In this document: positions 21,776 through 44,562 of the stretch, one piece after another
Numbering within the stretch: position 1 is the first letter of the stretch
Layout: each line of letters begins with the position of its first letter
Source: an uncultured Pseudomonadales bacterium
GTDB taxonomy: Bacteria; Pseudomonadota; Gammaproteobacteria; Pseudomonadales; Azotimanducaceae
Reading direction: 5' to 3'
NCBI GenBank assembly: GCA_958296025.1
Contig: OY282430.1
Location: 3,038,001-3,102,000, forward strand
DNA length: 64,000 nt
Program-made: the position numbers and the translations under genes
The notes under the pieces: model-generated
Databases searched by the model: none
What the model was told of the DNA's origin: nothing
Seen by the model: only the letters and a program-made list of their open reading frames with translations

Positions 21776-21862
21776 GATCGGTTCCCCACCGATGACGGAG
21801 CTTTATTCCGCCTATTGCGCCAAGGGCCGCGCTGGGGCGAAATGATGGGCGAGCGAGGCAAT

Positions 21863-22885
21863 TCATTTGTCATCTCCTTTGGCCGTTTGTTCAGCCTGCT
21901 TCATCTGCAAAAGCAACTTCCCGGTCACGCCCCGGCCTTCCAAGGTCTCGTACATCGCCTTGGCCTGCTCGAAGGGAAAAATTTGGGCGATGGGCACCCG
22001 CAGGCGGCCATCGGCGACCCGCTCCCAAATGTGCGCAACGCCTCGGTTCCAGCGCTTGGACCCCGGCCGAGTGCGCAGCAGCTCGAAACAGGTGAAGGAG
22101 GCGTTGTGCTCGTAGAGCTTGTCCCGCAGAAGGCGCACCTCACCTTGCGGCCAATCCTCGGCCTCGCCGATGCTGACGACATTGGCGTAGTCGTTGACCA
22201 CTTCGAAATTGCGCCAGAGAGTTTTGCCCCCCAAGGAGTCAATCACCACGTCAGCCCCCCTGCCGCCGGTGATTTCCAGCACCGCCGCGCCGAATTCCTG
22301 TTGGTTGCGGTCGATGACGTGGTGGGCGCCGTATTCCTTCGCCGTGGGGATCTTGGCCGGCGAATAGGTGGTGCCGATGACCTTTGCGCCCCAATCCACC
22401 GCCAATTGGGTGGCGTACAGTCCCACGCCGCCGCTGATGGCGTGGACTAGGACAAACTCGTCCGGCTCAAGGCGATGAATGCTGAACAGCAAGTGATAGG
22501 CGGTCAGGCCCGGCGTCAGCAGGGCGGCGCCTTGGGCGGTGCTCATGCCCGGCAGCAGCGGCATGATGAAATTGCGGGGAAAGCAGGCAAATTCCGCAAA
22601 GGCGCCGGTGTCCGTCGGGCTGATGGCGGCAACCAAATCCCCCTCGTTCAAGTCCTTAACGTTTTCGCCGAATTTCGCCACCGCGCCGGCGCAATCCAAG
22701 CCCGGTATGAAGGGCGGTTGCGGCATGCTGGGATACACGCCGCGGCGCTGCTGGGTGTCCGCCCAATTGATCGACGCATGATGCACCTCAACCAACACGT
22801 CGTCCGGCCCGCATGGCGGGGTGGGCACTTCAGCCAAAACCGGCTGGGCGTCCTCGCCGGGGCTTTCAATCAAGTATGCTCGCAT
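21863..22885 (-). CDS. MDR-family quinone oxidoreductase-like enzyme, paralog
   Basis: A 340-residue zinc-independent MDR enzyme paralogous to the previous gene. It has SINWADTQQRRGVYP, GLDCAGAVAKFGENV, AISGGVGLYATQLAVDWGAKV and IDSLGGKTLW. It starts 48 bases after the bimodular MBL gene and is probably co-transcribed with it from the operator-like site at 25913. Its last ~35 codons and the following flank are duplicated at 31228-31395, where the copied 3' end now provides the ribosome-binding site and start of another MBL gene. Confidence 0.88.
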   Translation of the reverse strand: MRAYLIESPGEDAQPVLAEVPTPPCGPDDVLVEVHHASINWADTQQRRGVYPSMPQPPFIPGLDCAGAVAKFGENVKDLNEGDLVAAISPTDTGAFAEFACFPRNFIMPLLPGMSTAQGAALLTPGLTAYHLLFSIHRLEPDEFVLVHAISGGVGLYATQLAVDWGAKVIGTTYSPAKIPTAKEYGAHHVIDRNQQEFGAAVLEITGGRGADVVIDSLGGKTLWRNFEVVNDYANVVSIGEAEDWPQGEVRLLRDKLYEHNASFTCFELLRTRPGSKRWNRGVAHIWERVADGRLRVPIAQIFPFEQAKAMYETLEGRGVTGKLLLQMKQAEQTAKGDDK

Positions 22886-22933
22886 TGGTCTTCTCCTTGA
22901 TCGGAATTCGCCGCGCTCTGAAGGCCTTGGACC

Positions 22934-25885
22934 TTAGGGCCGCATTCCGTGCATGTTCAGATCCACCGCTATGTAGAACACATGGTTTTTCAAAATCCTC
23001 TCAAACAGGTCGTGATGCCCGTATTTGCCTTCCATGTCCGCCTTGACCCGTTCGTAGAGCGGGCCTTCGATGAAGGCAAGCACCTGCTCGAAGCGATTCT
23101 TTGAGGATTCGGGCCGAATGTACTCGGTAAAGTCCCGCACGCCGGACAACGCCCGATAGGTGGCGGCCTTGACGTCATCGACGTAGGTGCGGACGTAGTG
23201 CGCATCGGCCCGGCTGCCGATGTTGCCGTGGCCGTCGTTGAAGAACTCCCAATCCAGCTCCAGCAGATAGTCGAGGGAGTCTTCGTAGGCCTTCAGATCC
23301 AGCGCAAAGTCGAAGTCCTGAAACGGGATGTAGCCCGGCACGAAGAAGTCCACGCCATGCACCACCTTCTCGGAAGGCAGATGAATGATCGAGGAATCCG
23401 GGCTGTGGCGTATTCCCCGGGAGCTATCGACGGTGACCCGCAAATCCTCAAAGGCGAACTCGCCAAATTTCGGCGGCAGCACCTCGTTCGGCAGGGGCAC
23501 TGGCTTGTTGAACCGCTTGATTTCCTCCAAGGTTTCCGAGGTGGCGATGACTCTCAGCTTGACGCCCTTCGCCTTCGCGGCCGCGGCAATTTTCCGCCCG
23601 TCGCCGATATGATCCAAATGGCTGTGGGAATACAGCACGGCGGTCACGGGCAGATCCGTGATCGTGGCAATCGCCTGCAAGGCGATCTCCCCCCGGCCAT
23701 CGGACAGCGGGTCAATGAGCAGAACCCCTTCGTCCCCCACATAAACGATGGCGTTGTAGGTTTCCACAGCCAGCCAATAGGTTCGCTCGGTGAGCCGCTG
23801 CAACAGGTAGGGCTGCAGAAAGCGAAGCTGCTCATAGTCGGCAATCTTTTCGCCTGGCTTCAGGAGCCGCGTAGCGGAAGGCGGCACTTCGCCGGTAGCG
23901 GCAGGCGGCGTAATTTGCTGGGCGGCGGCGTCCATATCGACTTGGGGCCGGCCGGCAAGCCCCGTGACATGGGCCTTGAACGCCTCAAAGGGGACGTCCG
24001 GCGCCGGCCCGTGGCTGCCCACGATGGTTTTTGGCCGCAACCCCCAGTGCGCAATCCCATTGAGCAAGTCCAGGCCGTTGCCCGGCGGTTCGTCGGGTTC
24101 CTCCGTCACCGAGTACAGGTCCCCGTTGTAAATCAGCTTCTCGTTGTCCAGGTGCAGCATCAGCATGTCGGTCACATGCCTGTTTTCCACGGGATAGAAG
24201 GTCACGGGACGGACGGCATCCTCAAGGCGCAGGAACTCGTCCGCGGCGATGCCGGTGATTTGCGCCGGCACGGGATTTCGATCCAAGGCGTCCGGCATGA
24301 TGGTCGCCTTCCGAGGGCTCAGGTGGCGGGCGTAGTGCGCCTGCGCCGCGGCATGGCACACCAGCTTGGCGCCGGCGGCGACGAACGGGCGGATGCCGCC
24401 GGCGTGGTCGATGTGATGATGGGTGGGCACCACATGGGAAACCGGCTTGCCGGGGGATTTCTCCGCCATCCAAGCCAGCAGGGCTTCGCCCTTGTTGTCC
24501 AGAAAGCCGGGATCGGAGACGACAAAGCCCCGCTCTTGCTCAACGACCAAGGTTCTGGCCGATTCATCCGGGGTTGAGAACACCACGTAAACCCCGGGCG
24601 CAATTTCCCGGGGCTGCACTTGCAGCGGGCCGACCGGCTTGCCCGGAGACCCGCCGTGGGCAATGCCCGTGATCCACTGGCTTATCCGGGCGCCGCGCCG
24701 GGCAAGCTCGGCGTCATGCACGTAACGCGCGTTGGGCGGGGGCGTGAACCGACTTTCGGGGATGGGCGCGTTGACCGAAACCTCGGTGCGGTTGACGTCC
24801 AGTATCGGCGCGCCGGCCACGGACAACTTGACGCGCATGGGCAAGGCCAGGCCCTGCACGGACCGCCAATCGTGGTAGGTCACCTCCAGCGGCACGTCGC
24901 CCAGCAGGATGTCGTGCTCCATGGTGCTCAATTTGCTGATGCGCCCCGATTGGTTGTGAACGTGCAGCCTGATGGGGTAAACCTCATCCTGAACGACCAG
25001 CCTGGAATGCGCCGCCTGTTCGATTCGCCGGTCGTTGCGCCAAGCCGTCAGCCAACCCGCATCGACGATGATCTCCGAGGCCACCAATTCCCTAAAACGC
25101 CCCGTCCGCCAACGGTCCAGCCAATCCTGGTTGACAAGCAACTTGCGCTGACCCGACACAAGGCCGAAATGCAGGGTCACCGGGTAGATCTGATCGTCGT
25201 CCAGCTGCGGTGCCAGCGGAGCGGGAAGGTTGCCGGGCGCTGACGCCTTGGAGGGGTCCTTAAGCGTTTCCTGCAGCAGGATGTGGGGGTTCAGCAGGCG
25301 CTCGGTCTTGATGGTTATCGCCCAGCGGCTGGGGTTCATCGCCGCGCCGGCGCCGGTGTCGTAGTAGAAGTTGTCCCGGCCTAGGGTGTAGCCGGCGGCG
25401 CCGACAATCAGTTCCGTTGCGTCCCGCTTGAAGCCGTACAGGTTTTCATGCCGGTAGTCCAGCCGCAAGCGGCCGGCGGACAGGTCGTGCCACTCCTGCA
25501 CTTCGGAACGGGTTGCCTTGAACAGCCCCCTGCCCGGCTCTGGCCCCAAGCCCAGTATGTAGCGCTCCCGGACGGATGTGATCGCCAAGGTCTCGACGCC
25601 GGCCAAGGCGGTGCGTCCGCCGACTCCCGCGTAAGCTCTTTCCAGCACTTCCGCCACGGCCCGGTCATCGGCGGCGGCCGGCGCCATTCCGCATATTGCG
25701 CCAAGGGCCGCGATGATCGCGGCAAAAGGCAAGGGAGGGCGCGACCAGTGCAGTTTGCGCCTGGGACGTTTCCGAACAATGGCCAAGTGGAAGGCCAGCA
25801 CAGTCCCGGCGCCGGCAACAACGCCCATCCCCGCCCTGCACAGGGCGGTTGCATTGGACCGCGAATCCACCAAGCGATGCTCCAA
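22934..25885 (-). CDS. Bimodular MBL hydrolase: long-type plus short-type MBL in one chain
   Basis: A 983-residue protein, the largest of the MBL family here. After an N-terminal hydrophobic segment (PFAAIIAALGAICGMAPAAA) comes the large N-terminal domain shared by the long paralogs, then a first MBL domain (THHHIDHAGG, about 485). A second, different MBL domain follows (YSHSHLDHIGDG, about 751; DFFVPGYIPF; NDGHGNIGS), homologous over its full length to the stand-alone short genes at 29013 and 30184. A gene fusion of neighbours is the simplest origin. The start is probably TTG at 25885 with AGGGAG upstream; an ATG lies 19 codons later. The operator-like site is 28 bases upstream. Confidence 0.85.
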   Translation of the reverse strand: MEHRLVDSRSNATALCRAGMGVVAGAGTVLAFHLAIVRKRPRRKLHWSRPPLPFAAIIAALGAICGMAPAAADDRAVAEVLERAYAGVGGRTALAGVETLAITSVRERYILGLGPEPGRGLFKATRSEVQEWHDLSAGRLRLDYRHENLYGFKRDATELIVGAAGYTLGRDNFYYDTGAGAAMNPSRWAITIKTERLLNPHILLQETLKDPSKASAPGNLPAPLAPQLDDDQIYPVTLHFGLVSGQRKLLVNQDWLDRWRTGRFRELVASEIIVDAGWLTAWRNDRRIEQAAHSRLVVQDEVYPIRLHVHNQSGRISKLSTMEHDILLGDVPLEVTYHDWRSVQGLALPMRVKLSVAGAPILDVNRTEVSVNAPIPESRFTPPPNARYVHDAELARRGARISQWITGIAHGGSPGKPVGPLQVQPREIAPGVYVVFSTPDESARTLVVEQERGFVVSDPGFLDNKGEALLAWMAEKSPGKPVSHVVPTHHHIDHAGGIRPFVAAGAKLVCHAAAQAHYARHLSPRKATIMPDALDRNPVPAQITGIAADEFLRLEDAVRPVTFYPVENRHVTDMLMLHLDNEKLIYNGDLYSVTEEPDEPPGNGLDLLNGIAHWGLRPKTIVGSHGPAPDVPFEAFKAHVTGLAGRPQVDMDAAAQQITPPAATGEVPPSATRLLKPGEKIADYEQLRFLQPYLLQRLTERTYWLAVETYNAIVYVGDEGVLLIDPLSDGRGEIALQAIATITDLPVTAVLYSHSHLDHIGDGRKIAAAAKAKGVKLRVIATSETLEEIKRFNKPVPLPNEVLPPKFGEFAFEDLRVTVDSSRGIRHSPDSSIIHLPSEKVVHGVDFFVPGYIPFQDFDFALDLKAYEDSLDYLLELDWEFFNDGHGNIGSRADAHYVRTYVDDVKAATYRALSGVRDFTEYIRPESSKNRFEQVLAFIEGPLYERVKADMEGKYGHHDLFERILKNHVFYIAVDLNMHGMRP

Positions 25886-25912
25886 GGAAAATCTCCCTAC
25901 GCCCAGGGCATT

Positions 25913-25933
25913 TTATGTAATAAACTTACATAA
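25913..25933. promoter_or_regulatory. TTAnnTAA operator-like palindrome
   Basis: TTATGTAA, five bases (TAAAC), then TTACATAA: a perfect 8-bp inverted repeat with half-sites 13 bp apart, 28 bases upstream of the bimodular MBL start. An identical site with the same flanks is at 31514-31534 because the surrounding ~145 bases are duplicated. Confidence 0.65.
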
Positions 25934-25961
25934 TCAACTTTACTAATTGGCCGGGTTTTAC

Positions 25962-26163
25962 CATCATGCCCGACGCGCTGGACCGGAATCCCGTCCCCGC
26001 CACCGTGCTGGGCGTCAAGGCCGGTGAATCCCTGCGGCTTGAAGACCCAGAGCGGCCCGTTTCGGTTTACCCTGTCTTCAACAGGCACTCCTCCGACGGG
26101 GTGGCGGTTCTGGTGGAAAACGAGGGCGTTCTCCACAACGGCGACCTTTACTCACCGGGCAAC
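25962..26163 (+). pseudogene. Internal fragment of a long-type MBL gene
   Basis: It matches 33162-33363 inside the intact MBL gene at 31645-33558 with only a handful of substitutions and no indels (offset 7200). It covers the MBL part from MPDALDRNPVP to NGDLYSPGN. The metal-binding HxHxDH region and the C-terminus are missing. It is a scar of the gene set deleted from copy A of the duplicated cluster. Confidence 0.85.
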
Positions 26164-26234
26164 TCCGCACCCGCGCCGAACGGGCGTTGCTGGAGCTGAA
26201 GAACGGCCTCAATAATCCCCCCAACTCTTCCTGA
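26164..26234 (+). pseudogene. 3' end of a MarR-family gene
   Basis: It is joined directly to the MBL fragment at 26163/26164 and matches 38886-38956, the last 23 codons and stop of the intact MarR gene (offset 12722). It has no start and no DNA-binding domain. Like the complete gene, it overlaps the 3' end of a convergent TonB receptor gene. Confidence 0.85.
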
Positions 26235-28533
26235 CCGTCAGCCCGTAGGAACGGCCCGGGCCGACGACGCCGGAAATGAAGGGTTCTCCCGCAAAAACCT
26301 CCGTGGGGCTCAACTGGCTGAACTGGCCGAAGACCGTCAGGCCGTTGTAAACCGCCCGATCATCGTTCAGATTCTTGCCCCAAAGGCTGACCTGCCAGCC
26401 CCCCCAACGGTAGGACGCGGTGGCGTTCAACTGCCCGAAGTCCGTGTCATCGATGATTGACTCAAGCGTGGCGTTGTCCGCATCGAAGTAGGAATCCCCA
26501 CGGTAGATGTAGTTCAGCGACAGCTGCGCCTCGCCAGGCCCCACCTGGGCGGTGTAGCTGAGGTCCGCGGTCCAGGAGTGCTTCGGGGACTGCGCCACGC
26601 GGTTGCCGGTGAAGTTCCGGTCCGGCGGGATGACGAAGCTGGTGAACAGCGCATCGGTCCAAGCGTAGGTGAAGTTGAACAGCAGTTGCTCGGTGAGCAG
26701 CGCCATGGCCTCCAGTTCAATGCCGTCAACCTGGGCCTTGCCGGCGTTCACCGTAGCAAACGACCTGCCGCCCGTTGGAATGATGGTTGTCTGCAAGTCC
26801 TTGTAGTCCGCCCGGTAATAGGTCAGGTTCAGGTGCGCCCGATCCTGCCAAAACACCGACTTCACACCGCCTTCGTAGCTCCAGACGAGCTCCGGCTCAA
26901 TCGGCGTGCTGGACGCCTCGGCCGTCACGCTGCTGATGAATCCGCCGGATTTGAAGCCCCGTGCGACGGATGCGTAAACAAACAGCGTATCGAACGGCCC
27001 GACCTCATCAAAGGTGCCGTCCAGAATGAACTTCGGCGTCCACGCCTGCCAACTTTTGCTGACCGTTATATTGTGGTTTTCAATGATGAAGATGCCGCTG
27101 GGGAAGGGGTTGCCGACATTGTTGGCCCGGCCCGACTTCTTGTCCTTGGTCCAGCGCAGCCCAGCGGTGAAGTTCAGCCAATCGTTTAAGGCGTAGGTGT
27201 TGTGGGTGAACAGGGCGATGGACTTGACGGTGCCTTCCTGGCGCAGGTTGTCGTTGAAGCCGAAGAAGCCGTCAATGCCCAAGGGGAAGGGCGGATAGGG
27301 CGGCGGGTTGCCCAAAAGCCCGTTCGACAGCAGGAAGTTCAGGCCCGACCCAGACAGCCCGAAGTTGACGTCGAACAGCTGGTCGAAGTAGCCGTCCGAA
27401 GAGAGATAGTAGGCGCCAACCATCCAGTTCAACCGCTCCGTCTCCCCGGCCAACCGCAGCTCCTGGGTGAACTGCTTGTGCTTGTTGTCCGACGAAAAGA
27501 AGAAGTTGGTGCCGGGGCTGGTCGAGGCTAGGTCGTCGTTCAGAAAATAGGCCGTTGAACGCCGCCACGCGCTGATGGAGCTCAGGGTCGAGCCGCCAAG
27601 CAGCGGCAGATCCCAATCGACATGCAGATTCAGGCCGTAGAGTTCCTTGTCGTTTTGGCCGGCGGTGTCCACCTGCGCCACATCCGTGTCGTTGAACTTG
27701 CCGCCGGTATTTTCGGCTGTGTTCCTGACGACGCCGGGGTCCAGCTCCGGATCCCCCACCAACAGGAACCAAGGGGTGCCCTGCCCGTTGTCCTTGGTGT
27801 AGTTGGCGCCCAAGACCACATCGGCGGCATCCCCAGCCCAGCGCAGCTTGCCGCGCAGGGTGGTTAGCTTGCCGCCGCCCATCTCCGCATCGTCCAGCAA
27901 GGCGTTCTCCGACCAGCCGCCGGTGTCGTCATGCTTGAAGGTCAAGCTGCCGAAAACCTGCTCCGCAAGAGGGCCGGAAGCCTTGCCGCGCACCGTGAAT
28001 AGGCCGTTGCCGGTGCCGTCGTATTGGCCGTAGGAGACGTCGACCAAGCCCCGAGGGGTTTCATCCGGCGTTTCCGTGATGACGTTGATGGCGCCGCCCA
28101 CGACGTTGCGGCCAAACAGGGTGCCTTGAGGGCCCCGCAGCACCTCGATTCGCTCCAAGTCCACGAAGTCAAGGGCCGTTTCGTATTCCCGGCTGTAGTA
28201 AACGTCGTCCACGAATATGCCGAAGGTTCGGTCCGCCAATGGGTCCGAATTGGATGAAAAGGCGCCGCGCATCGAGATGTGCGACTGCGAGCGGTTGAAG
28301 CTCTTCATGGCGGCGCCGGGCGTGCGCGAGGTGATGTCCTCGATGTCGTCGATCTGAAACTTGTCCAGATACCCATCGGCGAACGCCGTGACCGCCACGG
28401 GCGTCTCCTGCAGGTTCTGCTCGCGCTTTTGCGCGGTTACGACAATTTCCTCCAGCACTTGGGCGCCGTCCGCCGGCGCCGCAGCGATGCCAAAAGAAAT
28501 GGCTAGAAATTTCAACCAGTTACGCTTATTCAT
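26209..28533 (-). CDS. TonB-dependent receptor, copy A
   Basis: A 774-residue outer-membrane receptor. Signal peptide LKFLAISFGIAAAPADGA is followed by the TonB box EEIVVTAQKREQ. The plug domain has MRGAFSSNSDP and IEVLRGPQGTLFGRNVVGGAINV, and a barrel ends in an aromatic-terminated strand (GLTVRKSWGDY). It imports a large or scarce ligand across the outer membrane; iron chelate and organic substrate are both possible. The start at 28533 is chosen because GGAGG precedes it and the signal peptide begins there. The frame stays open to 28674 only because the 5' end contains a degenerate partial repeat of itself (MTKGNCLNF echoing MNKRNWLKF). Confidence 0.92.
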   Translation of the reverse strand: MNKRNWLKFLAISFGIAAAPADGAQVLEEIVVTAQKREQNLQETPVAVTAFADGYLDKFQIDDIEDITSRTPGAAMKSFNRSQSHISMRGAFSSNSDPLADRTFGIFVDDVYYSREYETALDFVDLERIEVLRGPQGTLFGRNVVGGAINVITETPDETPRGLVDVSYGQYDGTGNGLFTVRGKASGPLAEQVFGSLTFKHDDTGGWSENALLDDAEMGGGKLTTLRGKLRWAGDAADVVLGANYTKDNGQGTPWFLLVGDPELDPGVVRNTAENTGGKFNDTDVAQVDTAGQNDKELYGLNLHVDWDLPLLGGSTLSSISAWRRSTAYFLNDDLASTSPGTNFFFSSDNKHKQFTQELRLAGETERLNWMVGAYYLSSDGYFDQLFDVNFGLSGSGLNFLLSNGLLGNPPPYPPFPLGIDGFFGFNDNLRQEGTVKSIALFTHNTYALNDWLNFTAGLRWTKDKKSGRANNVGNPFPSGIFIIENHNITVSKSWQAWTPKFILDGTFDEVGPFDTLFVYASVARGFKSGGFISSVTAEASSTPIEPELVWSYEGGVKSVFWQDRAHLNLTYYRADYKDLQTTIIPTGGRSFATVNAGKAQVDGIELEAMALLTEQLLFNFTYAWTDALFTSFVIPPDRNFTGNRVAQSPKHSWTADLSYTAQVGPGEAQLSLNYIYRGDSYFDADNATLESIIDDTDFGQLNATASYRWGGWQVSLWGKNLNDDRAVYNGLTVFGQFSQLSPTEVFAGEPFISGVVGPGRSYGLTVRKSWGDY

Positions 28534-28728
28534 CGACCAACCCTCCAGTTGATTTCCCCGCATTGCGCACAAAAATGCAATGAAACTCCTGCATTCCAGC
28601 GGCATGGTCGGGTGGCGCTGCTGTAAGCCCAAAGAAAAAATTGCCCAAAAATTCAAGCAGTTACCCTTGGTCATCCGTCAGCCCACCGAACCGCGCCGAG
28701 TTCATCCAAGCCAGAGCGTAGCACGAAA

Positions 28729-28749
28729 TTATATAATTAACTTATCTAA
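28729..28749. promoter_or_regulatory. TTAnnTAA operator-like site upstream of receptor copy A
   Basis: Half-sites TTATATAA and TTATCTAA are separated by five bases (TTAAC), again 13 bp apart. It lies 196 bases upstream of the receptor start, at exactly the same distance as the matching site before receptor copy B. Confidence 0.6.
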
Positions 28750-28789
28750 TTTGTTCCCGAGACACTTGCGCTGTAGCCTTTCCCTCGGC

Positions 28790-29005
28790 AGCACCTTCCG
28801 CTCGGAGACCGAAGCCCGCTCCACGGAGAACGCCACCGGAATCTCATGCTTGGCGTCGGCCACCAAGTGCAGCTTGCAGCCGGACCAGCTGGCGATGCGC
28901 TCCCAGGGCTTGCCGGTACGCCAGTCCCGCCCAACCCGCACCGGGGCAAGGCCTCGAAGCCGCACGTCGCGATTTGCGGCACGAAGCCTTGGTGCAATTC
29001 CCGGC
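28790..29005 (-). pseudogene. DDE transposase fragment (IS4/IS5/IS1182-like)
   Basis: A central transposase piece is readable in one frame: RVGRDWRTGKPWERIASW, then GCKLHLVADAKHEIPVAF and VERASVSE. The KLHL.AD...E.P.AF...AS.SE pattern is typical of the second catalytic region of IS4/IS5-type DDE transposases. No start, no ends and no terminal repeats are visible. It lies right at the outer end of the receptor block and may have taken part in the rearrangement. Confidence 0.65.
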
Positions 29006-29012
29006 TAGCGGA

Positions 29013-30077
29013 TCACTCCGCCTGCGGAACCACCATGCCCGACTGGTGGTAGGAGATGTTCACGATCATGAACATGACGTGGTTTTTGAACAGGTAGTCG
29101 AATTCCTCCAGGCGCGTGAATTTCGGATCCATCTCCTTTTTTGCGGCCTCCGCCAACTTCGCCACCCAATCCAAGGAATACAGATCCGGGTGCCTAGTCG
29201 GGTCGATGAAATCCGCAAAGGGGAGTGCCTGCAAGCCAGCCAGAGTCGCCGCCCGCAGCTGGTCAATGTATTCCTGCTGGAACAGCGCATCTTGCCTTGA
29301 CCCTATGTTCCCGTGTCCATCGTTGAAGAACTGCCAGTCCAAGCGCTTGAGCAGCGCCAAGTCGTCTTCAAACCCCTTGATGTCCAAGGAGAAATCGAAG
29401 TTCTCAAAGGGCAGGTGGCCGGGAACGAAGAAATCCGGCGCATGCACCACTCCCTCCCCCAGCAAATAAGCGGTTGAGGCATCAACGCTGTGGCGCGTGC
29501 CGTTGGTGAATACCTTCACGGTCAGCTCTTCAAAGGTGAACTCCCCCTCCGGCGTCGCGACGATCTCCGTCGGCCGAGGCACGGGCTTGCCGTGGCGCTC
29601 TATTTCAGCCAAGGTCGCTTGGGAGGCGATGATCCGCAGGTTGACCCCGTTCTTCTTGGCCGCCGCCACGAAAACCGACGCTTCGCCGATGTGGTCCAAA
29701 TGACTGTGCGAATACATCAGCGCGGTGACTGGCAAGTCCGTCACCGTGGCGATGGCCTGAAGGGCAATCGCCGCCCGTCGGCCGGACAAGGGGTCGAACA
29801 CCAGAACGCCCTCATCGCCAACGTAGAAGGTGAGGTTGTTGGTTTCCACTGCCAGGAAGTAGGCCCGCTCGGTCAGGCGCTGAATGATGTAGGGTTGCTC
29901 GAATCGCAACGCATCATACCCGGCAATTTTCTGCCCTGGGGCCAACGCCTTGACCGCCGATGGCGGAACCTCCGCGGCCTCCTGCGCCGCCACCGAGGCC
30001 GAGCAGGCCATCACCAGAGCCGTCAAAAACGCCAAGGGCTCAAAGGCAAGCCCCCGTTGCCATCTGTCGCGTGTCAT
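29013..30077 (-). CDS. Exported MBL-fold hydrolase, short type
   Basis: A 354-residue protein starting at MTRDRWQRG with AAGGG upstream. A signal peptide (FLTALVMACSASVAAQ) is followed by an MBL domain with YSHSHLDHIGEASVF (about 118-132), GTRHSVDAS, VHAPDFFVPGHLPF and NDGHGNIGS. It corresponds in full to the second module of the bimodular protein at 22934. The tail with the phrase NHVMFMIVNISYHQSG is shared by the short types. Metal ligands are complete, so an active Zn hydrolase is expected in the periplasm. A close paralog is encoded 107 bases upstream on the same strand; the pair is a tandem duplication. Confidence 0.85.
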   Translation of the reverse strand: MTRDRWQRGLAFEPLAFLTALVMACSASVAAQEAAEVPPSAVKALAPGQKIAGYDALRFEQPYIIQRLTERAYFLAVETNNLTFYVGDEGVLVFDPLSGRRAAIALQAIATVTDLPVTALMYSHSHLDHIGEASVFVAAAKKNGVNLRIIASQATLAEIERHGKPVPRPTEIVATPEGEFTFEELTVKVFTNGTRHSVDASTAYLLGEGVVHAPDFFVPGHLPFENFDFSLDIKGFEDDLALLKRLDWQFFNDGHGNIGSRQDALFQQEYIDQLRAATLAGLQALPFADFIDPTRHPDLYSLDWVAKLAEAAKKEMDPKFTRLEEFDYLFKNHVMFMIVNISYHQSGMVVPQAE

Positions 30078-30183
30078 TTCCCTTCTCCAAGACGTATCCG
30101 ATGGGTTCATTTCATCTGCGCTAGCAAACTCCCACTCAAGCATCCGCTGCTCAAGGGTCTGTTAGCATTATCTGGGCTAGGCG

Positions 30184-33558: not shown

Positions 33559-35093
33559 GTTCTTCGCTCATTCGCGGCAAGTACGTCGTCTGCAAGGCCA
33601 TAGGCCGAACCGATGCGCAGGTGCTTGATGACGGCGCCGTCTTCCAAGAGAACGGCGTCATCGTCGAGGTCGGCCCCTACCGGGAGTTGGCGGCCAAGCA
33701 TCAGCCGGACGAGGTGCTGGGTTCCGCCAGGCACATCGTGCTGCCGGGGTTCGTCAACAGCCATCACCACATCGGGTTGACGCCGTTTCAGTTGGGTTCC
33801 CCCGACCACAACCTGGAGTTGTGGATTGCCAGCCGCCTGGGCGCCCGGTTCGTTGACCGCCATCTGGACACGCTCTACTCCGCATTCGAACTCGTCGAAT
33901 CCGGCGTGACCACGGTGCAGCATCTGCACGGCTGGCTGGGCGGCGGCGTCCCGGACGTGATCGCGCGGGCCGAGCAGATCCTCGGGGCCTATCAGGCCAT
34001 TGGCATGCGGGCGTCCTACTCGTTCTCGATGCCGGACCAAAACCGCTTCGTCCTCGATGCGGACGAGGGCTTCATCCGCTCCCTGCCGCCGGCCATCGGC
34101 GGCGAACTGGCCGCCTTGCTGGAGGCGGTGTCCATGCCTCTTGACGAGGTGTTTTCGGTGTTTGTCGAATTGTGGGAGCGTTGGCGCGGGTCGCAGCGCA
34201 TCCGCATACAGCTGGCCCCGGCGAACCTGCATTGGTGCTCCGACGAGTTGCTGCAAAAGCTGCATGAACACGCCCTGAAGTACGGCGTCGGCCTGCACAT
34301 GCACCTCGACGAGACCCCCTATCAAAGGGAGTACGCCCGGCGGCGCACGGGTATGTCGGCGGTCGGCCACCTGCACCAAATGGGTTTTCTGGGGCCGCAT
34401 CTGACGCTGGGGCACGGCGTGTGGCTGAACGAGCAGGACATCGACTTGGCCGCCGAAACCGGCACGATGATCTGCACCAATCCCAGCTCCAATCTGCGTT
34501 TGCGCAGCGGCATCGCGCCGCTGCAGCAATTCGCCGCCAAGGGCGTGCGGGTGGCCATCGGCATCGACGAGGCCGGCATCAACGACGACCGGGACATGCT
34601 GCAGGAAATGCGCCTGGTCCTGGATCTGCACAGAACGCCGGGCATGGATGAGGTGGTCCCCACCGCGCCGGAGGTCTTCCGGATGGCCACCGAAAACGGT
34701 GCCCTGACAACCGGCTTCGGGGCGGACATCGGCGTTTTGGCGCCGGGCCGGGCGGCGGACATCGTGATGATGGACTGGGAGGAAATCGCCTTCCCCTACC
34801 TACACGAAGACACGCCGGCCCTGGATGCGGTTTTGCGCCGTGCCAAATCAGCCAACGTCAAGACGGTGCTGGTGGCTGGGGAGGCCATCCTGAAGGACGG
34901 CCAGTTTACGAAGGTCGATAAGCAAGCGGCCCTCGCCGAACTGGCCGACTCCCTGCGCGCACCCTTAAGCCCCGACGAACGGCGGCGCGGGGAACTGGGC
35001 GCCAAGCTGCTGCCGCACCTCAGGGGCTTCTACGACGGCTGGCATGACCGCCGGCAATGGACGCCTTACTACCAGCACAACTCCCGTCGCTAG
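33555..35093 (+). CDS. Amidohydrolase (8-oxoguanine deaminase/chlorohydrolase-like)
   Basis: A 512-residue metal-dependent amidohydrolase of the cytosine-deaminase/TrzN/AtzB group. It has the first metal motif PGFVNSHHHIGL (about 70-80), SGVTTVQHLHG, the third-strand LHMHLDETP, the fourth-strand LTLGHGVWL and the catalytic Asp in AIGIDEAG, followed by the C-terminal composite-domain phrase LAPGRAADIVMMDW. It removes an amino group or halide from a heterocycle or similar compound. It has no signal peptide, so it is cytoplasmic. It is coupled to the preceding MBL lipoprotein and followed three bases later by an MFS gene, so the three form one operon. Confidence 0.88.
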   Translation: MSSSLIRGKYVVCKAIGRTDAQVLDDGAVFQENGVIVEVGPYRELAAKHQPDEVLGSARHIVLPGFVNSHHHIGLTPFQLGSPDHNLELWIASRLGARFVDRHLDTLYSAFELVESGVTTVQHLHGWLGGGVPDVIARAEQILGAYQAIGMRASYSFSMPDQNRFVLDADEGFIRSLPPAIGGELAALLEAVSMPLDEVFSVFVELWERWRGSQRIRIQLAPANLHWCSDELLQKLHEHALKYGVGLHMHLDETPYQREYARRRTGMSAVGHLHQMGFLGPHLTLGHGVWLNEQDIDLAAETGTMICTNPSSNLRLRSGIAPLQQFAAKGVRVAIGIDEAGINDDRDMLQEMRLVLDLHRTPGMDEVVPTAPEVFRMATENGALTTGFGADIGVLAPGRAADIVMMDWEEIAFPYLHEDTPALDAVLRRAKSANVKTVLVAGEAILKDGQFTKVDKQAALAELADSLRAPLSPDERRRGELGAKLLPHLRGFYDGWHDRRQWTPYYQHNSRR

Positions 35094-35096
35094 CGG

Positions 35097-36443
35097 GTGC
35101 CCGCGCCGATGCCGAACACTGCTGGGAACAAGCCCCCCTACATCGGGTTCGGCTTCGCCGGCATCGGCACGGCCCTGTCTTTGCAGATTCCCAACCTGCT
35201 GCTGCTGGTTTACATGACGGACACCTTGGCCATTTCCGCCGCCCTGGCCGGCGCCGCCCTGTTCGCGCCGAGATTGCTCGATGTGGTGACTGATCCGCTC
35301 ATGGGGCTGCTCAGCGACCGCACCAAGTCCCGTTGGGGCCGCCGCCGGCCCTATTTCCTGTTGGGGGCGCTGGTGACGAGCTTGGCGCTGGCGCTGTTGT
35401 TCAACTGCCCGGATTTCGCGTCCGTCCCCGCCCGGCTGGCCTATGTGGTGGGCTTTTACGTCGTCATGCAACTGGGGGTCACCATTTTCATGGTGCCCTA
35501 TTACGCCCTGCCGGCCGAACTCAGTTCCGACCCCCACGAAAGGACCAAGCTGATGTCCACCCGGGCGGCGTTCTCCTTCTGCGGCGGCCTGTTGGGCGGC
35601 GCCTTGGCGCCCAAGCTCATCGCGCTGGGCGGCGGCGGGCAGGACGGCTACTCCATGATGTCCGTCGTCATCGGCTTCATCTGCGGCGCCGCCTTCGTCT
35701 ATGCCTTCTTCGGCACACGCAAGGCGCAACTCATCGAGGAGGAAACAACGGCCCTGCCCATTATCGAACAGTTCAAGGTGGCGCTCAGCAACCGGCCGTT
35801 CAGAATCTTCATGCTCAGCTTCATCGCCTACCTGTGCAGCTTCGGTTGCTTCGTCGCCTCCATTCCCTATTACGCCGGCAACATTCTTGGCCGGGATGAA
35901 ATTCTCGGCACGATCTGGTTGTCGGTGAACGTGCCGGCGATCGCCTCCATTCCCTTCTGGACCTTGGCGACTCGGCGCTGGGAAAAGCATCAGGTTTTGG
36001 TCGCGGCCCTTGGGCTGATGGCCCTGACCTCCGCCGCCCTGTTCCTAGACCAGGGGGAATTGTCGGTTCTGCTGTCGATCACCGTTCTCCTAGGCATCGG
36101 CTTCGGCGGCAGCCAAGTGGCTTGCTGGGCGATGCTGCCGGACATCATCCAATGGGATTACGTCCAATCCGGCGTTCAGCGGGGAGGCATCTTCGCCGGC
36201 TGCATGACGGCCTTTGAGAAAACCGGCTTAGCGCTCGGTGGTCTGCTCACCGGGGCGCTCTTGGCGACCACCGGATACGTTGAATCAACAACCGGCGACG
36301 CCGTTCAGCCGGCAAGCGCCCTGACCGGCATCAAGCTGGCGATTGGGGCGGCCCCGGCAGTCCTCTACGCCCTCGCCGCAGCGCTGATAGCGGCCTATCC
36401 CCTAACCCACAAGCTGCTGCGCACTCAGGCGGCGGCCCCCTGA
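35097..36443 (+). CDS. MFS transporter of the GPH (MelB-like) type
   Basis: A 448-residue 12-TM symporter. The first loop motif, LDVVTDPLMGLLSDRTKSRWGRR (D-x-x-x-DP-x-x-G-x-x-D-R-T-x-S-R-x-G-R-R), identifies the glycoside-pentoside-hexuronide:cation symporter family. It begins three bases after the amidohydrolase stop at a GTG; an ATG four codons later (35109) may be the real start. It probably imports the amidohydrolase or MBL product, with Na+ or H+. In this bacterial group GPH members often transport non-sugar compounds. Confidence 0.85.
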   Translation: MPAPMPNTAGNKPPYIGFGFAGIGTALSLQIPNLLLLVYMTDTLAISAALAGAALFAPRLLDVVTDPLMGLLSDRTKSRWGRRRPYFLLGALVTSLALALLFNCPDFASVPARLAYVVGFYVVMQLGVTIFMVPYYALPAELSSDPHERTKLMSTRAAFSFCGGLLGGALAPKLIALGGGGQDGYSMMSVVIGFICGAAFVYAFFGTRKAQLIEEETTALPIIEQFKVALSNRPFRIFMLSFIAYLCSFGCFVASIPYYAGNILGRDEILGTIWLSVNVPAIASIPFWTLATRRWEKHQVLVAALGLMALTSAALFLDQGELSVLLSITVLLGIGFGGSQVACWAMLPDIIQWDYVQSGVQRGGIFAGCMTAFEKTGLALGGLLTGALLATTGYVESTTGDAVQPASALTGIKLAIGAAPAVLYALAAALIAAYPLTHKLLRTQAAAP

Positions 36444-36502
36444 ACGCCTCCGCCAAAATCATTGCGGCGGCGACGCGTACCAATCCAGTGGAGGTTTGAA
36501 CC

Positions 36503-38374
36503 ATGTTGCAGTCAAGAGCAACGACCGGCCTGGCGCCAACGGGCGTCCTAGCGGCTGTCCTTTCCTGTTTGCTGGCCGCTTGCGCCGACAATGCCGGCGA
36601 TTCAAGCCCGGCCGCCGAAAGCCTAGTGCGAGAGGCTGCAACAAACATCGACCCGCAGGCGGCTTTGCAGATGGCCGTTGAGGGCTTGGGCGGACGCGAC
36701 GCACTAGAGAGGCTGGCGGGTTTCTCCATGCAGGCAACGCGGGACCGATACGAATTGGGCATGGGCCTCGAGCCGGGTTCCGGCTTGGTCCGCGCCACCC
36801 TGTCCGACGTTCAGGTGCTGCACGACATCGCCGGCGAACGGCTGCGGCTGGACTACGCGCACACCAATTTGTATCGAATGCCGCGCAACGTCACGGAACT
36901 GGTGCTGGGCGGTTCCGGCTACATTCTGGGCAGGGACTTCTACTACGACAAGTCGGCGGAGGCGGAGGCCGGCCGGCAGGCCATGTCGCCAGACCGCTGG
37001 GCCATCACCCTGAAGACGGAGCGCCTGTTGAACCCGCATCTCATGGTGCAGGAGGCATTGGCGGATCCCTCGCTGTTGCTGCCATCCAGCGCAGAAAACA
37101 GCCCGGCCGGCTTGCAGTTGGACGATGACCAAGTTTTCCCCATAACGCTCTACTTTGACGAAAGCCAGCAGCAGCGCACGGTGCTGGTGCAGGATGACTG
37201 GGTGCGCCGTTTGCAGGACGGCTATTTCCTGGAATTGTCCACCGGCGGAAACTACTTTGTGGACGCCAACTGGTACCTGCGTTGGCGGGCCGCCGCCAAA
37301 TTGGACGATGTGCGGCATTATCCATTGGTCATCCAAGACTCGGTTTATCCGATTACCCTGCACGTTCATGGCGAGACCGGCCGCATCAGCAAGCTGGCCA
37401 CCATGGAGCACGATCTGTATTATGGCGACGTGCCGGTGGAGGCCACTTACAACGACTGGCGGGAAGTCGAAGGCCAGCACTTTCCAATGCACGTCATGCT
37501 GTCCATTGCCGGCACCCCAAGCCTGGAGGTGCGACGCTCCGCAATAGCGGTGAACCCGGATTTCGACCCCGCAGCCTTCACCCAACCCGAAGGCGTCGCG
37601 GCCTCCCACGATGCGGCGCTGGCCGATCGGGGCCGCCGCCTAAGCCAATGGATCCAAGGCATTTCCCACGCCGGTTCGCCGAAGCCCACCGTCAAGCCCA
37701 AGATCAATCCAACCGAACTGAGCCCCGGCGTGCATTCGCTCAGCGTCACGCCGGATGACGCCCTAAGAACCCTGGTGGTGGAGCAATCCGCTGGCGTCGT
37801 CGTGATCGAGCCGGGCTATCAGGACTTAAGAGGGGAAGCCATCATCGAATGGACCGCGCAGAACATTCCCGGCAAACCCCTAAGCCATGTGGTGCTGACC
37901 CATTTCCACTTGGATCATGTCGGCGGCGTCCGGCCCTATGTGGCGGCCGGCGCGGTCCTGGTGGCCCACGAGCTGGCGGAAAGCCACTATCGGCGCTTGT
38001 TTGGCCGGCCAAAGTCCAAGATTCTGCCGGACGCTTACGACCGCAACCCGGTTGCGGCTAAAATAGCGAAGGTGCCGGGCGACGGTGCCTACCGCATTGA
38101 GGACCCTTTGCGGCCGGTGGCGGTTTACCCGGTAAGAAACCGGCACACCACCGACATGGTCATGGTGTGGGTGGAGAAGGAGCAGATCCTGTTCAACGGC
38201 GACCTGTATTCCCCCGGCGAAGACATACCGGACAAAACTCCAATGGGCGGCGTTGACTTGGACAGGGGCATCCGCGAACAGGGCCTGCAGGTCAAGCTCC
38301 TAGCCCCCTCCCACGGATTTCCATCGGTCTCCTACGAAGCGTTCAAGGCGCACTTGGCGGTTGACGGCTACTAA
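36503..38374 (+). CDS. MBL-fold hydrolase lipoprotein, long type
   Basis: A 623-residue long-type paralog with lipobox SCLLAACAD. It has LDYAHTNLYR, ERLLNPHLMV, ETGRISKLAT and TYNDWREVEG in the N-terminal domain and LTHFHLDHVGGVRPY near residue 465, RNRHTTDM, FNGDLYSP and PSHGFP in the MBL domain. GGAGG stands ahead of the ATG, 60 bases after the MFS gene, so it is probably part of the same transcript. It is followed by the MarR gene 31 bases later. Confidence 0.87.
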   Translation: MLQSRATTGLAPTGVLAAVLSCLLAACADNAGDSSPAAESLVREAATNIDPQAALQMAVEGLGGRDALERLAGFSMQATRDRYELGMGLEPGSGLVRATLSDVQVLHDIAGERLRLDYAHTNLYRMPRNVTELVLGGSGYILGRDFYYDKSAEAEAGRQAMSPDRWAITLKTERLLNPHLMVQEALADPSLLLPSSAENSPAGLQLDDDQVFPITLYFDESQQQRTVLVQDDWVRRLQDGYFLELSTGGNYFVDANWYLRWRAAAKLDDVRHYPLVIQDSVYPITLHVHGETGRISKLATMEHDLYYGDVPVEATYNDWREVEGQHFPMHVMLSIAGTPSLEVRRSAIAVNPDFDPAAFTQPEGVAASHDAALADRGRRLSQWIQGISHAGSPKPTVKPKINPTELSPGVHSLSVTPDDALRTLVVEQSAGVVVIEPGYQDLRGEAIIEWTAQNIPGKPLSHVVLTHFHLDHVGGVRPYVAAGAVLVAHELAESHYRRLFGRPKSKILPDAYDRNPVAAKIAKVPGDGAYRIEDPLRPVAVYPVRNRHTTDMVMVWVEKEQILFNGDLYSPGEDIPDKTPMGGVDLDRGIREQGLQVKLLAPSHGFPSVSYEAFKAHLAVDGY

Positions 38375-38404
38375 CCTATCCCTGCAACGGACGCCTGATC
38401 GAAA

Positions 38405-38956
38405 ATGGCCAAGAAGTCGAAACTGAAGCCCAATCCCCCGATCATCTCCATCTCCGATCTGTCTTCCGACGAGGCCGGACGGCTGTTGTTGACCCTCATT
38501 TGGGATTTTTTCTCCATCGCCAGCCACTTGGGGAACATCCGCAGCATCTGGGCCGGCATGGCCGGCATCACCGGCCCGCAGTGGAACGTCCTGACCGCCA
38601 CGGACTATCTGGACGAAGGCGAAGGGGTTTCAGTTGGCGAAATAGCCAACAAGCTGCACGTCAAATCCACGTTCGTTACGGCGCAGTCGAAACTGATGGA
38701 AAAAAGCGGCCACCTGCGCCGCCGGCCGTCGCAGAAGGACAAGCGGATCGTTTTGCTGTCGCTGACTCCGCAAGCCATTCACAAGGTCAACGCCTTCTAC
38801 GACATACGGCGGCGCATGGACCAAACCATGTTCGGGGAGTTTTCCGGGCAGGAGTTCCAACAGCTGGTGAAGCAGGTTGAAGCCATCCGCACCCGCGCCG
38901 AACGGGCGTTGCTGGAGCTGAAGAACGGCCTCAATAATCCCCCCAACTCTTCCTGA
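38405..38956 (+). CDS. MarR-family transcriptional regulator
   Basis: A 183-residue winged-helix regulator. The typical blocks are ITGPQWNVLTA, then VSVGEIANKLHVKSTFVTAQSKLMEKSG (recognition helix) and the wing LRRRPSQKDKRIVLLSLTPQA. It has an N-terminal extension of about 20 residues and a C-terminal dimerisation helix. MarR dimers bind short palindromes and release DNA on ligand binding. This is the only regulator in the 10-41 kb cluster, so it is my candidate for the TTAnnTAA sites. Its last 26 bases overlap the 3' end of the convergent receptor gene, and a fragment of its 3' end survives at 26164-26234. Confidence 0.88.
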   Translation: MAKKSKLKPNPPIISISDLSSDEAGRLLLTLIWDFFSIASHLGNIRSIWAGMAGITGPQWNVLTATDYLDEGEGVSVGEIANKLHVKSTFVTAQSKLMEKSGHLRRRPSQKDKRIVLLSLTPQAIHKVNAFYDIRRRMDQTMFGEFSGQEFQQLVKQVEAIRTRAERALLELKNGLNNPPNSS

Positions 38957-41255
38957 CCGTCAGCCCGTAGGAACGGCCCGGGCTGACGACGCCGGAAATG
39001 AAGGGTTCTCCCGCAAAAACCTCCGTCGGGCTCAACTGGCTGAACTGGCCGAAGACCGTCAGGCCATTGTAAACCGCCCGATCATCGTTCAGGTTCTTGC
39101 CCCACAGGCTGACCTGCCAGTCCTGCCAACGGTAGGACGCGGTGACGTTAAACTGCCCGAAGTCCGTGTCATCGATGATCGACTCCAGCGTCACGTTGTC
39201 CGCATCGAAGTAGGAATCCCCACGGTAGGCGTAGTTCAGCGACAGTTGCGCCTCGCCCGGCCCCACTTGGGCGGTGTAGCTGAGGTCCGCGGTCCAGGAG
39301 TGCTCCGGCGACTGCGCCACTCGGTTGCCGGTGAAGTCCCGGTCCGGCGGGATGACGAAGCTGGTGAACCGCGCATCGGTCCAAGCGTAGGTGAAGTTGA
39401 ACAGCAGTTGCTCGGTGAGCAGCGCCATGGCCTCCAGTTCAATGCCGTCAACCTGGGCCTTGCCGGCGTTCACCGTAGCAAACGACCTGCCGCCCGTTGG
39501 AATGATGGTTGTCTGCAAGTCCTTGTAGTCCGCCCGGTAATAGGTCAGGTTCAGGTGCGCCCGTTCCCGCCAAAACACCGACTTCACACCGCCTTCGTAG
39601 CTCCAGACGAGTTCCGGCTCAATCGGCGTGCTGGACGCCTCGGCCGTCACGCTGCTGACGAACCCCCCGGATTTGAAGCCCCGTGCGACGGATGCGTAAA
39701 CAAACAGCGTATCGAACGGCCCGACCTCATCGAAAGTGCCGTCCAGAATGAACTTCGGTGTCCACGCCTGCCAACTTTTGCTGAACGTTACATTGTGGTT
39801 TTCAATGATGAAGATGCCGCTGGGGAAGGGGTTGCCGACATTGTTGGCGTAGCCCGACTTCTTGTCCTTGGTCCAGCGCAGCCCGGCGGTGAAGTTCAGC
39901 CAGTCGTTTAAGGCGTAGGTGTTGTGGGTGAACAGGGCGATGGACTTGACGGTGCCTTCCTGGCGCAGGTCGTCGTTGAAGCCGAAGAAGCCGTCGATGC
40001 CCAAGGGGAACGGCGGATAGGGCGGCGGGTTGCCCAAAAGCCCGTTCGACAACAGGAAGTTCAGGCCCGACCCGGAAAGCCCAAAGTTGACGTCGAACAG
40101 CTGGTCGAAGTAGCCGTCCGAAGAGAGATAGTAGGCGGCAACCAACCAATTCAACCGCTCCGTCTCCCCGGCCAGCCGCAGCTCCTGGGTGAACTGCTTG
40201 TGCTTGTTGTCCGCCGAAAACAAAAAGTTGACCCCAGTGCTGGTCGAGGCCAAGTCGTCATTCAGGAAGTTCGCCGTCGAGCGGCGCCAAGCGGTGATGG
40301 AAGTCACGGTCGAGCCGCCAAGCATCGGCAGATCCCAATCGACATGCAGATCCAAGCCGTAGAGCTCCTTGTCGTTTTGGCCGGCGGTGTCCACCTGCGC
40401 CACATCCGTGTCGTTGAACTTGCCGCCGGTATTTTCGGCTGTGTTCCTGACGACGCCGGGATCCAACTCCGGATCCCCCACCAGCAGGAACCAAGGGGTG
40501 CCCTGCCCGTTGTCCTTGGTGTAGTTGGCGCCCAAGACCACATCGGCGGCATCCCCAGCCCAGCGCAGCTTGCCGCGCAGGGTGGTTAGCTTGCCGCCGC
40601 CCATCTCCGCATCGTCCAGCAAGGCGTTCTCCGACCAGCCGCCGGTGTCGTCATGCTTGAAGGTCAAGCTGCCGAAAACCTGCTCCGCAAGAGGGCCGGA
40701 AGCCTTGCCGCGCACCGTGAATAGGCCGTTGCCGGTGCCGTCGTATTGGCCGTAGGAGACGTCGACCAAGCCCCGAGGGGTTTCATCCGGCGTTTCCGTG
40801 ATGACGTTGATGGCGCCGCCCACGACGTTGCGGCCAAACAGGGTGCCCTGGGGCCCGCGCAGCACCTCGATTCGCTCTAGATCCACGAAGTCAAGGGCCA
40901 TCTCGTATTCGCGGCTGTAGTAAACGTCGTCCACGAATATGCCGAAGGTTCGGTCCGCCAATGGGTCCGAATTGGATGAAAAGGCGCCGCGCATCGTGAT
41001 GTGCGACTCCGAGCGGTTGAAGCTCAACATGGCGACGCCGGGCGTGCGCGAGGTGATGTCCTCGATGTCGTCGATCTGAAACTTGTCCAGATACCCATCG
41101 GCGAACGCCGTGACCGCCACGGGCGTCTCCTGCAGGTTCTGCTCGCGCTTTTGCGCGGTTACGACAATTTCCTCCAGCACTTGGGCGCCGCCCGCCGGCG
41201 CCGCAGCGATGCCAAAAGAAATGGCTAGAAATTTCAACCAGTTACGCTTATTCAT
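38931..41255 (-). CDS. TonB-dependent receptor, copy B
   Basis: A 774-residue receptor, the same length as and nearly identical to copy A, with signal peptide LKFLAISFGIAAAPAGGA, TonB box EEIVVTAQKREQ, plug phrase VLRGPQGTLFGRNVVGGAIN and the C-terminal strand GLTVRKSWGDY. Differences from copy A are scattered (for example VAMLSFNRSESHITM versus AAMKSFNRSQSHISM in the plug), so the two may differ slightly in ligand handling or are drifting neutrally. Its start has the same GGAGG. Transcription would run toward the MarR gene, with convergent 3' overlap. The operator-like site is 196 bases upstream. Confidence 0.92.
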   Translation of the reverse strand: MNKRNWLKFLAISFGIAAAPAGGAQVLEEIVVTAQKREQNLQETPVAVTAFADGYLDKFQIDDIEDITSRTPGVAMLSFNRSESHITMRGAFSSNSDPLADRTFGIFVDDVYYSREYEMALDFVDLERIEVLRGPQGTLFGRNVVGGAINVITETPDETPRGLVDVSYGQYDGTGNGLFTVRGKASGPLAEQVFGSLTFKHDDTGGWSENALLDDAEMGGGKLTTLRGKLRWAGDAADVVLGANYTKDNGQGTPWFLLVGDPELDPGVVRNTAENTGGKFNDTDVAQVDTAGQNDKELYGLDLHVDWDLPMLGGSTVTSITAWRRSTANFLNDDLASTSTGVNFLFSADNKHKQFTQELRLAGETERLNWLVAAYYLSSDGYFDQLFDVNFGLSGSGLNFLLSNGLLGNPPPYPPFPLGIDGFFGFNDDLRQEGTVKSIALFTHNTYALNDWLNFTAGLRWTKDKKSGYANNVGNPFPSGIFIIENHNVTFSKSWQAWTPKFILDGTFDEVGPFDTLFVYASVARGFKSGGFVSSVTAEASSTPIEPELVWSYEGGVKSVFWRERAHLNLTYYRADYKDLQTTIIPTGGRSFATVNAGKAQVDGIELEAMALLTEQLLFNFTYAWTDARFTSFVIPPDRDFTGNRVAQSPEHSWTADLSYTAQVGPGEAQLSLNYAYRGDSYFDADNVTLESIIDDTDFGQFNVTASYRWQDWQVSLWGKNLNDDRAVYNGLTVFGQFSQLSPTEVFAGEPFISGVVSPGRSYGLTVRKSWGDY

Positions 41256-41450
41256 CGGTCAACCCTCCAGTTGATTTCCCCGCATTGCGCACAAAAATGC
41301 AATGAAACTCCTGCATTCCAGCAGCATGGTCGGGTGGCATTGCTGTAAGCCCAAAGAAAAAATTGCCCAAAAATTCAAGCAGCTACCCTTGGTCATCTGT
41401 CAGCCCACCGCACCGCGCCGAATTCACCCGCGGCGCAGTGTAGCAGAAAA

Positions 41451-41471
41451 TTATATAATTAACTTATCTAA
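41451..41471. promoter_or_regulatory. TTAnnTAA operator-like site upstream of receptor copy B
   Basis: TTATATAA, five bases (TTAAC), then TTATCTAA. It is identical to the site at 28729 and at the same distance from the receptor start. The spacing of half-sites is again 13 bp. Confidence 0.6.
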
Positions 41472-41613
41472 TTTGTTTCCCCAATCGGCAAGCGGCGCAT
41501 TGCAGCCGCCGCCGTTGGTTCTTTCGCCACTTCGCGTCAGCCCCGTCGGGCGCAGCGGCCTTTTTGCCAGTGCTTGAGCCTGTATAATTGCCGGTTTCCG
41601 TGCTGGACCGGCC

Positions 41614-44560: not shown

Positions 44561-44562
44561 CA

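Follow-up and report, generated by a model that had tools for sequence, protein, structure and literature searches.

In mitochondrial genomes, gene order can change by tandem duplication-random loss (TDRL), in which a segment is copied in tandem and each gene is then lost from one copy or the other, leaving a new order. The SNAP model (Selection during Niche Adaptation), in the passages of Brandis and Hughes (2020; PMC7055797) that set it out, comprises four stages, namely duplication, selection, inactivation and fixation; the trait under selection may, for instance, be the dosage of a nutrient transporter. The same passages state that the first two steps have been reported in natural isolates and that direct empirical evidence for the rearrangement is lacking; they add that a finished event leaves no feature in the genome that is unique to the model, and propose looking for its intermediate steps. 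In P. ingrahamii, a duplicated section has been put forward as a possible case of the same path (PMC8046335).

The locus described here lies in the window, that is, the whole 64,000-nt stretch of DNA that was analysed, and consists of two incomplete copies, A and B, of one gene cluster. With a probability of roughly 77%, a cluster of about 16.5 kb was duplicated once in tandem, and at least four deletions then removed different genes from the two copies. As in TDRL, there is a tandem copy, a loss of each gene from one or the other copy, and a new order. Unlike the mitochondrial cases, it concerns a pair of bacterial operons in which scars remain and one gene is kept twice, and for which there is an unduplicated relative, the MAG of an uncultured Pseudomonadales bacterium of the same genus (OY282455.1, hereafter G008). 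The locus resembles SNAP in its duplication, in a possibly favoured gene that is kept twice, in the loss of other genes from different copies, in a presumed locking and in the new order, whereas the segments considered in the passages on that model measure tens of kb to more than 1 Mb and carry genes that are essential or needed for high fitness, against about 16.5 kb of accessory genes here (PMC7055797). For P. ingrahamii, the precise mechanisms could not be determined according to the relevant passage of its authors, whereas at the present locus both copies still show their scars and the unduplicated order can be seen in a relative (PMC8046335). No natural locus of this kind is described in the passages compared, from one open-access library, of PMC7055797, PMC8046335, PMC10531765, PMC2820515 and PMC8942028.

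Collinear blocks and complementary genes

A self-BLAST of the window aligned copy A (21798-28758) with copy B (31228-41480), which is adjacent at a spacing of 2.5 kb and in direct orientation, as four collinear direct blocks. These are block 1 (21798-21963 = 31228-31393; 166 bp, 97.0% identity, 5/166 differences), block 2 (25810-25955 = 31411-31556; 146 bp, 97.3%, 4/146), block 3 (25962-26163 = 33162-33363; 202 bp, 96.0%, 8/202) and the gap-free block 4 (26164-28758 = 38886-41480; 2595 bp, 95.5%, 116/2595). Chance is excluded by E-values of at most 2.5e-65, and divergence is homogeneous across the blocks (chi-square p = 0.62). Equal divergence had been set beforehand as a test by the initial annotation, and the blocks passed it. 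The same landmarks had also been claimed to occur in the same order in both copies, as the four blocks bear out, and the scars had been placed correctly at 31228-31556 and 25962-26234, the last 71 bp of the latter being the MarR 3′ end.

As a control for repeats, six 60-kb stretches taken from this genome (in total 360 kb out of 3.9 Mb) were searched for direct pairs of at least 50 bp and at least 85% identity. They held 0, 2, 1, 4, 0 and 2 such pairs, whereas the window had seven in its first 60 kb. Among the control pairs, the longest was one of 1643 bp and 100% identity. In one stretch, two direct pairs were collinear but short (189 and 72 bp, 85-89%), and inverted copies of them lay elsewhere. 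No gene-scale collinear chain was found in the six stretches at these thresholds.

The features of the locus are listed in Table 1. Each of the eleven genes in copies A and B is open, with no internal stop. Copy A lacks sMBL and the run from MBL1 to MarR, and copy B lacks ADH and bMBL. Counting sMBL′, which is absent from the G008 cluster, ten genes can be tallied, nine of them present once, the TonB gene twice and none missing. Under independent loss, the chance that no gene is lost twice is p = 0.03 for ten genes and 0.05 for nine (without sMBL′), both crude values because the losses are segmental. The view that the two copies together make one complete set thus stands in that nine genes occur once and none is lost, though not strictly, the TonB gene being present twice. 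A unit of 15-20 kb had been estimated, in agreement with the computed value of about 16.5 kb; overlooked in its extent were the sMBL genes (29013-31296), a third deletion in copy A and the transposase remnant at the A/B joint. Because block 1 includes the 5′ end of sMBL, there is a third scar in copy A at its left edge, and the homology of the left flank to G008 stops directly before it, at 21796.

Table 1. Genes, scars and other elements of the two copies, in window coordinates.
Feature	Position	Strand	Remarks
Third operator motif, outside the duplicated unit	20713-20733	+	Between amidase (-) and MDR0 (+)
sMBL 5′ scar, copy A	21798-21862	-	0/65 differences from 31228-31292; abuts left flank
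ADH/MDR-type zinc-binding oxidoreductase, sole intact copy (A)	21863-22885	-	Pfam ADH_N/ADH_zinc_N; 94.1% aa to G008
bMBL, two-part metallo-beta-lactamase-fold protein, sole intact copy (A)	22934-25885	-	983 aa; Pfam Lactamase_B, two stretches; 93% aa to G008
Block 2 in copy A: 5′ end of bMBL with the shared divergent promoter region	25810-25955		Operator motif 25914-25947
MBL1 scar (3′ part), copy A	25962-26163	+	96.0% to 33162-33363
MarR 3′-end scar, copy A	26164-26234	+	Collinear with 38886-38956; overlaps TonB 3′ end
TonB-dependent receptor, copy A	26209-28533	-	Pfam Plug and TonB barrel; 774-aa frame homologous to copy B; open to 28674
TonB operator motif, copy A	28730-28750	+	Zero-mismatch match
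Transposase (DDE_Tnp_1-like) remnant, A/B joint	28762-29004	-	Pfam E 0.003, 17.8 bits, under the 23-bit cut-off
sMBL′, small MBL paralogue	29013-30143	-	72.6% aa and dS 0.79 to sMBL; no counterpart in G008 cluster
sMBL, sole intact copy (B)	30184-31296	-	93.4% aa to G008
ADH 3′-end scar, copy B	31293-31393	-	5/101 differences from copy A
bMBL-interior piece inside copy B scar, 17 bp	31394-31410		Part of a 31-bp 90% match to 24353-24383
Block 2 in copy B: bMBL 5′ scar (31411-31486) and operator motif (31515-31548)	31411-31556		Sits between sMBL and MBL1
MBL1, sole intact copy (B)	31645-33558	+	637 aa
Amidohydrolase, sole intact copy (B)	33555-35093	+	Pfam Amidohydro_1; 96% aa to G008
GPH-type MFS symporter, sole intact copy (B)	35097-36443	+	Pfam MFS_2; TIGR00792 above cut-off; 94.2% aa to G008
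MBL2, sole intact copy (B)	36503-38374	+	623 aa
MarR-type regulator, sole intact copy (B)	38405-38956	+	Pfam MarR/MarR_2
TonB-dependent receptor, copy B	38931-41255	-	
TonB operator motif, copy B	41452-41472	+	Homology to copy A stops at 41480

The cluster is accessory and, judging by its hydrolases, transporter and receptor, probably catabolic. When a large-MBL profile was compared with solved structures, the best 60 of 141 matches were presumably all MBL-fold entries, and among the NCBIfam matches listed only that of the MFS symporter lies above its cut-off. In the bMBL protein, a large MBL (48-51% to MBL1 and MBL2) seems to have been fused to an sMBL-type protein (53-56%).

The single cluster of G008 and the age of the probable duplication

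At 4061-4076 kb, G008 carries sMBL, ADH, bMBL, MBL1, amidohydrolase, MFS, MBL2, MarR and TonB, one of each, with about 93% DNA identity to the present locus as far as the MarR 3′ end. No internal repeats of at least 50 bp and at least 85% identity were found within this cluster. A single, unduplicated cluster in a relative was the other test set beforehand, and G008 supplies it in the inferred order and without such scars; the comparison rests on this one genome. The original order would be that of G008, sMBL(-) ADH(-) bMBL(-) / operator / MBL1(+) amidohydrolase(+) MFS(+) MBL2(+) MarR(+) TonB(-), and sMBL′ probably stood on the left side of sMBL. This paralogue is older than the duplication, and it probably belonged to the duplicated unit. 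In the fetched stretch of G008, the flank is at 28042 and the sMBL 5′ end at 32283, with 4.2 kb between them; a 3.2-kb stretch to the left of sMBL in G008 is missing here, the right flanks also differ, and sMBL′ leaves no scar in copy A. Neither outer end of the duplicated unit is recovered in the comparison with G008.

Relatives were searched with bMBL. Within the genus (nine genomes including its own), G008 gave the only near-full-length match elsewhere (93%), six of the remaining genomes gave weak matches (E 1e-7 or worse) and one gave none. Two more genomes in a sample of the family (200 genomes including its own and the congeners) matched the N part only, at 40%, and in a sample of the order (390 genomes, with G008 evidently absent) only its own genome passed 1e-90. 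A scan of named genomes with an alignment of large MBL proteins returned 13 loci, and within the stretches compared, some of them of only 3-6 kb, the cluster is present only at the two loci of OY282455.1. At eight of the 11 distant named loci (L042, L043, L046, L047, L049-L052), MBL proteins of about 620 aa are found near berberine-bridge-type FAD oxidoreductases, the other three being stretches of 3-6 kb. The same pairing is seen at L024, perhaps the same place as L043, and here at 16052-17902 and 14500-16062.

In a codon comparison with G008, dN/dS is 0.14-0.23 for seven of the nine genes kept once; the amidohydrolase (compared by tblastn only, 96% aa) and sMBL′ (no G008 counterpart) stand outside it. 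A three-way comparison of blocks 1-4 gave 11, 9, 9 and 539 changes common to A and B against G008, with 2, 2, 7 and 49 found only in A, 3, 2, 1 and 54 only in B, and 0, 0, 0 and 13 positions at which all three differ. The same 84 bp are missing from both copies in block 1, relative to G008. In each block the changes common to A and B outnumber those of either copy alone, and the two copies group together against G008. Between the TonB copies dS is 0.106, below the pooled value of 0.179 to G008 for ADH, bMBL, sMBL, MBL1, MFS and MBL2 (ratio 0.59), and the duplication is therefore more recent than the split between the island copies of the two genomes; TonB and MarR, with dS to G008 of about 0.9 and 0.41, were left out of the pooled value. 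Because the copy A scar has changed faster, copies A and B are in block 3 only slightly closer to each other (3.96%) than B is to G008 (4.95%). This MBL1 scar has seven changes of its own against one in the intact B gene (p = 0.07), an excess that is not significant but is as expected of a dead fragment. Gene conversion from paralogues was rejected as the origin of the changes that cluster at the start of this scar, MBL1 being the closest sequence (G008 54/60, B 53/60; bMBL 32/39, MBLx 31/38).

The cluster is part of an island whose blocks of more than 1 kb (window -8936 to 38927, G008 4021-4074 kb) are 93-97% identical. Other DNA compared with G008 is 81-86% identical in a control stretch, 81 and 89% in another comparison and 69-90% in the right flank of the G008 cluster. 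As the island blocks lie above these values, the island was probably exchanged between lineages, and G008 as a simple vertical sister was rejected. A window-by-window comparison places a mosaic joint close to the MarR 3′ end; both sides of it are present in both copies, and the mosaic is thus older than the duplication.

Further repeats occur in the neighbourhood and in G008. At 4032108-4033300 of G008 (window 7761-8495 and 10749-11210), a small gene pair, by eye a PIN toxin with an AbrB-type antitoxin, is accompanied by a 460-bp scar from the 3′ end of an MBL and sits to the left of a segment without the pair; this may be another case of duplication with reciprocal loss, its unit being about 16 kb. 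Window 42521-48421 contains two amidohydrolase genes whose ends are repeated (44802-45087 = 46189-46474, 97.6%), and more partial copies, one pair at 99.8%, are found at 2211-2222 kb in G008. Neither local duplication of G008 is claimed as an equally clear reciprocal loss, since only parts of two genes are repeated at 2.21 Mb, and the duplication on the left of the island involves a putative toxin-antitoxin pair identified by eye. Short repeats also lie near two ATPase-type genes (AAA_14/DUF4143 and ATPase_2; window 4688-4831, 6518-6568 and 7528-7626), in G008 too.

Deletion joints and alternative histories

Relative to G008, copy B has lost about 3.8 kb (ADH-bMBL), and copy A about 1.6 kb (the front of MBL1), about 5.5 kb (MBL1 end to MarR) and a left piece of undefined length. 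By eye, one scar joint has a 9-bp repeat, GGCGCCGGC, the rest show little or no microhomology, and one joint carries a few filler bases. The joint at 31393-31411 is not clean, as 17 bp of the bMBL interior separate the ADH and bMBL scars. The transposase remnant has six matches elsewhere in this genome (G000) and in G008, at 60-76% identity and in longer frames. Its position between the copies makes an insertion sequence a candidate cause of the duplication; a search of both genomes found no copy of the remnant at the outer ends of the unit. At its right end, past the A-B homology, copy A matches the G008-type flank over 13/14 bp, and the right flank of copy B (rhodanese, SecB) is therefore probably the derived one. 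A swap of the right flank by a single inversion was rejected, as the G008 DNA upstream of rhodanese maps to 1.265 and 2.22 Mb of G000 and not to 1.36 Mb.

The deletions could instead have come first, in two related strains, the defective clusters then being joined by transfer and unequal recombination and complementing each other. Such a history is unlikely, as it requires two independent defective strains that happen to be complementary, although the island does seem to have been exchanged between lineages (93-97% in long blocks against 81-86% in the control stretch), a tandem repeat whose copies differ by about 4.5% would be an old one, and the MarR-TonB end was already mosaic (dS to G008 of about 0.9 in TonB and 0.41 in MarR, compared with the pooled 0.18). 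The genes kept in A and those kept in B are, however, similarly far from G008, with dS of 0.157-0.184 for ADH and bMBL and 0.158-0.214 for sMBL, MBL1, MFS and MBL2, MarR (0.41) being set apart. The mosaic joint and the missing 84 bp are common to both copies, as they would also be to strains of a single species, and a 363-nt identical run in the TonB genes suggests exchange within one chromosome.

An assembly artefact, by which the haplotypes of two strains in a mixed sample came to stand end to end in the contig, is much less probable still. While G008 is a MAG, as this genome may be, and a divergence of 4.5% would suit strain mixing, haplotypes set end to end would demand repeated flanks, and the flanks are not repeated. 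Moreover, the joint has a sequence of its own (the transposase remnant and sMBL′), and the genome forms a single 3.9-Mb contig, its contamination being estimated at 0.99%. Least credible is a series of small independent duplications (TonB with its operator, the promoter, MBL pieces) in place of a large one; other short local duplications do lie nearby (44802-45087 = 46189-46474), but the four blocks are collinear and equally diverged (p = 0.62), the sequence that connects them is present in G008, and block ends inside genes follow simply if a larger copy underwent deletion. The preferred reading is tandem duplication with reciprocal loss, the locus having adjacent direct copies from which different genes are lost, none of them from both, and a parental order taken from one genome, G008.

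Retained receptor and promoter, and the proposed history

The TonB gene with its operator and the bMBL/MBL1 promoter survive twice, as parts that look usable from their sequence. Between the two TonB genes dN/dS is 0.22, with 35/774 residues different, and both look to be under purifying selection. Their 363-nt run without a difference (0/10000 shuffles) suggests a later exchange or gene conversion between the copies, or possibly strong constraint. The motif TATNTAATNNACTTANNTAAT has five sites in this genome and three in G008 (at most one mismatch), all in or beside the cluster; none was found elsewhere in either genome at this threshold, nor was any with the reversed control. Its 21-bp operator cores are identical in A and B. 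The promoter region around the first operator differs between the copies at 2/70 bases, and the stretch upstream of TonB at 13/84, above the rest, B being by eye the changed one. In copy A, the bMBL/MBL1 promoter still faces bMBL-ADH, while its copy B counterpart is flanked by MBL1 and, across a 43-codon leader left from bMBL, by sMBL, each of which it faces. The shared divergent operator was plausibly kept in both copies since each half needs it, and deletions that stop on either side of the promoter would fit this need. The MarR protein may bind the putative operator motif.

Under the tandem duplication preferred here, the single cluster of about 16.5 kb would have been copied in tandem, perhaps with an insertion sequence as mediator, and selection may at first have favoured receptor dosage. 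Copy A would then have lost sMBL (with sMBL′) and the MBL1-MarR run, and copy B ADH and bMBL. With each copy holding a gene missing from the other, recombination to a single cluster would cost genes, and the arrangement would be locked. The outcome would be a new gene order with a doubled TonB gene and a doubled promoter, in which each divergent arm keeps its own operator.

With respect to SNAP, gene order is changed relative to G008, different genes are lost from the two copies, and the retained genes have low dN/dS, each of them presumably being needed. It is possible, and suggested here only tentatively, that the locus represents a natural late-stage SNAP intermediate, the duplication being kept for the outer-membrane receptor and locked by reciprocal loss, and that such loss easily splits operons that share a divergent promoter. 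The process is of a known kind and not a new one, and the locus is an unusually legible example of it. The way in which bacterial gene order changes is debated, and at this locus both copies, their scars, the unduplicated order and the doubly kept DNA can be seen. It allows the proposed SNAP steps to be dated and ordered, and it provides a pattern for searching other genomes, namely collinear scars, equal age and complementary genes.
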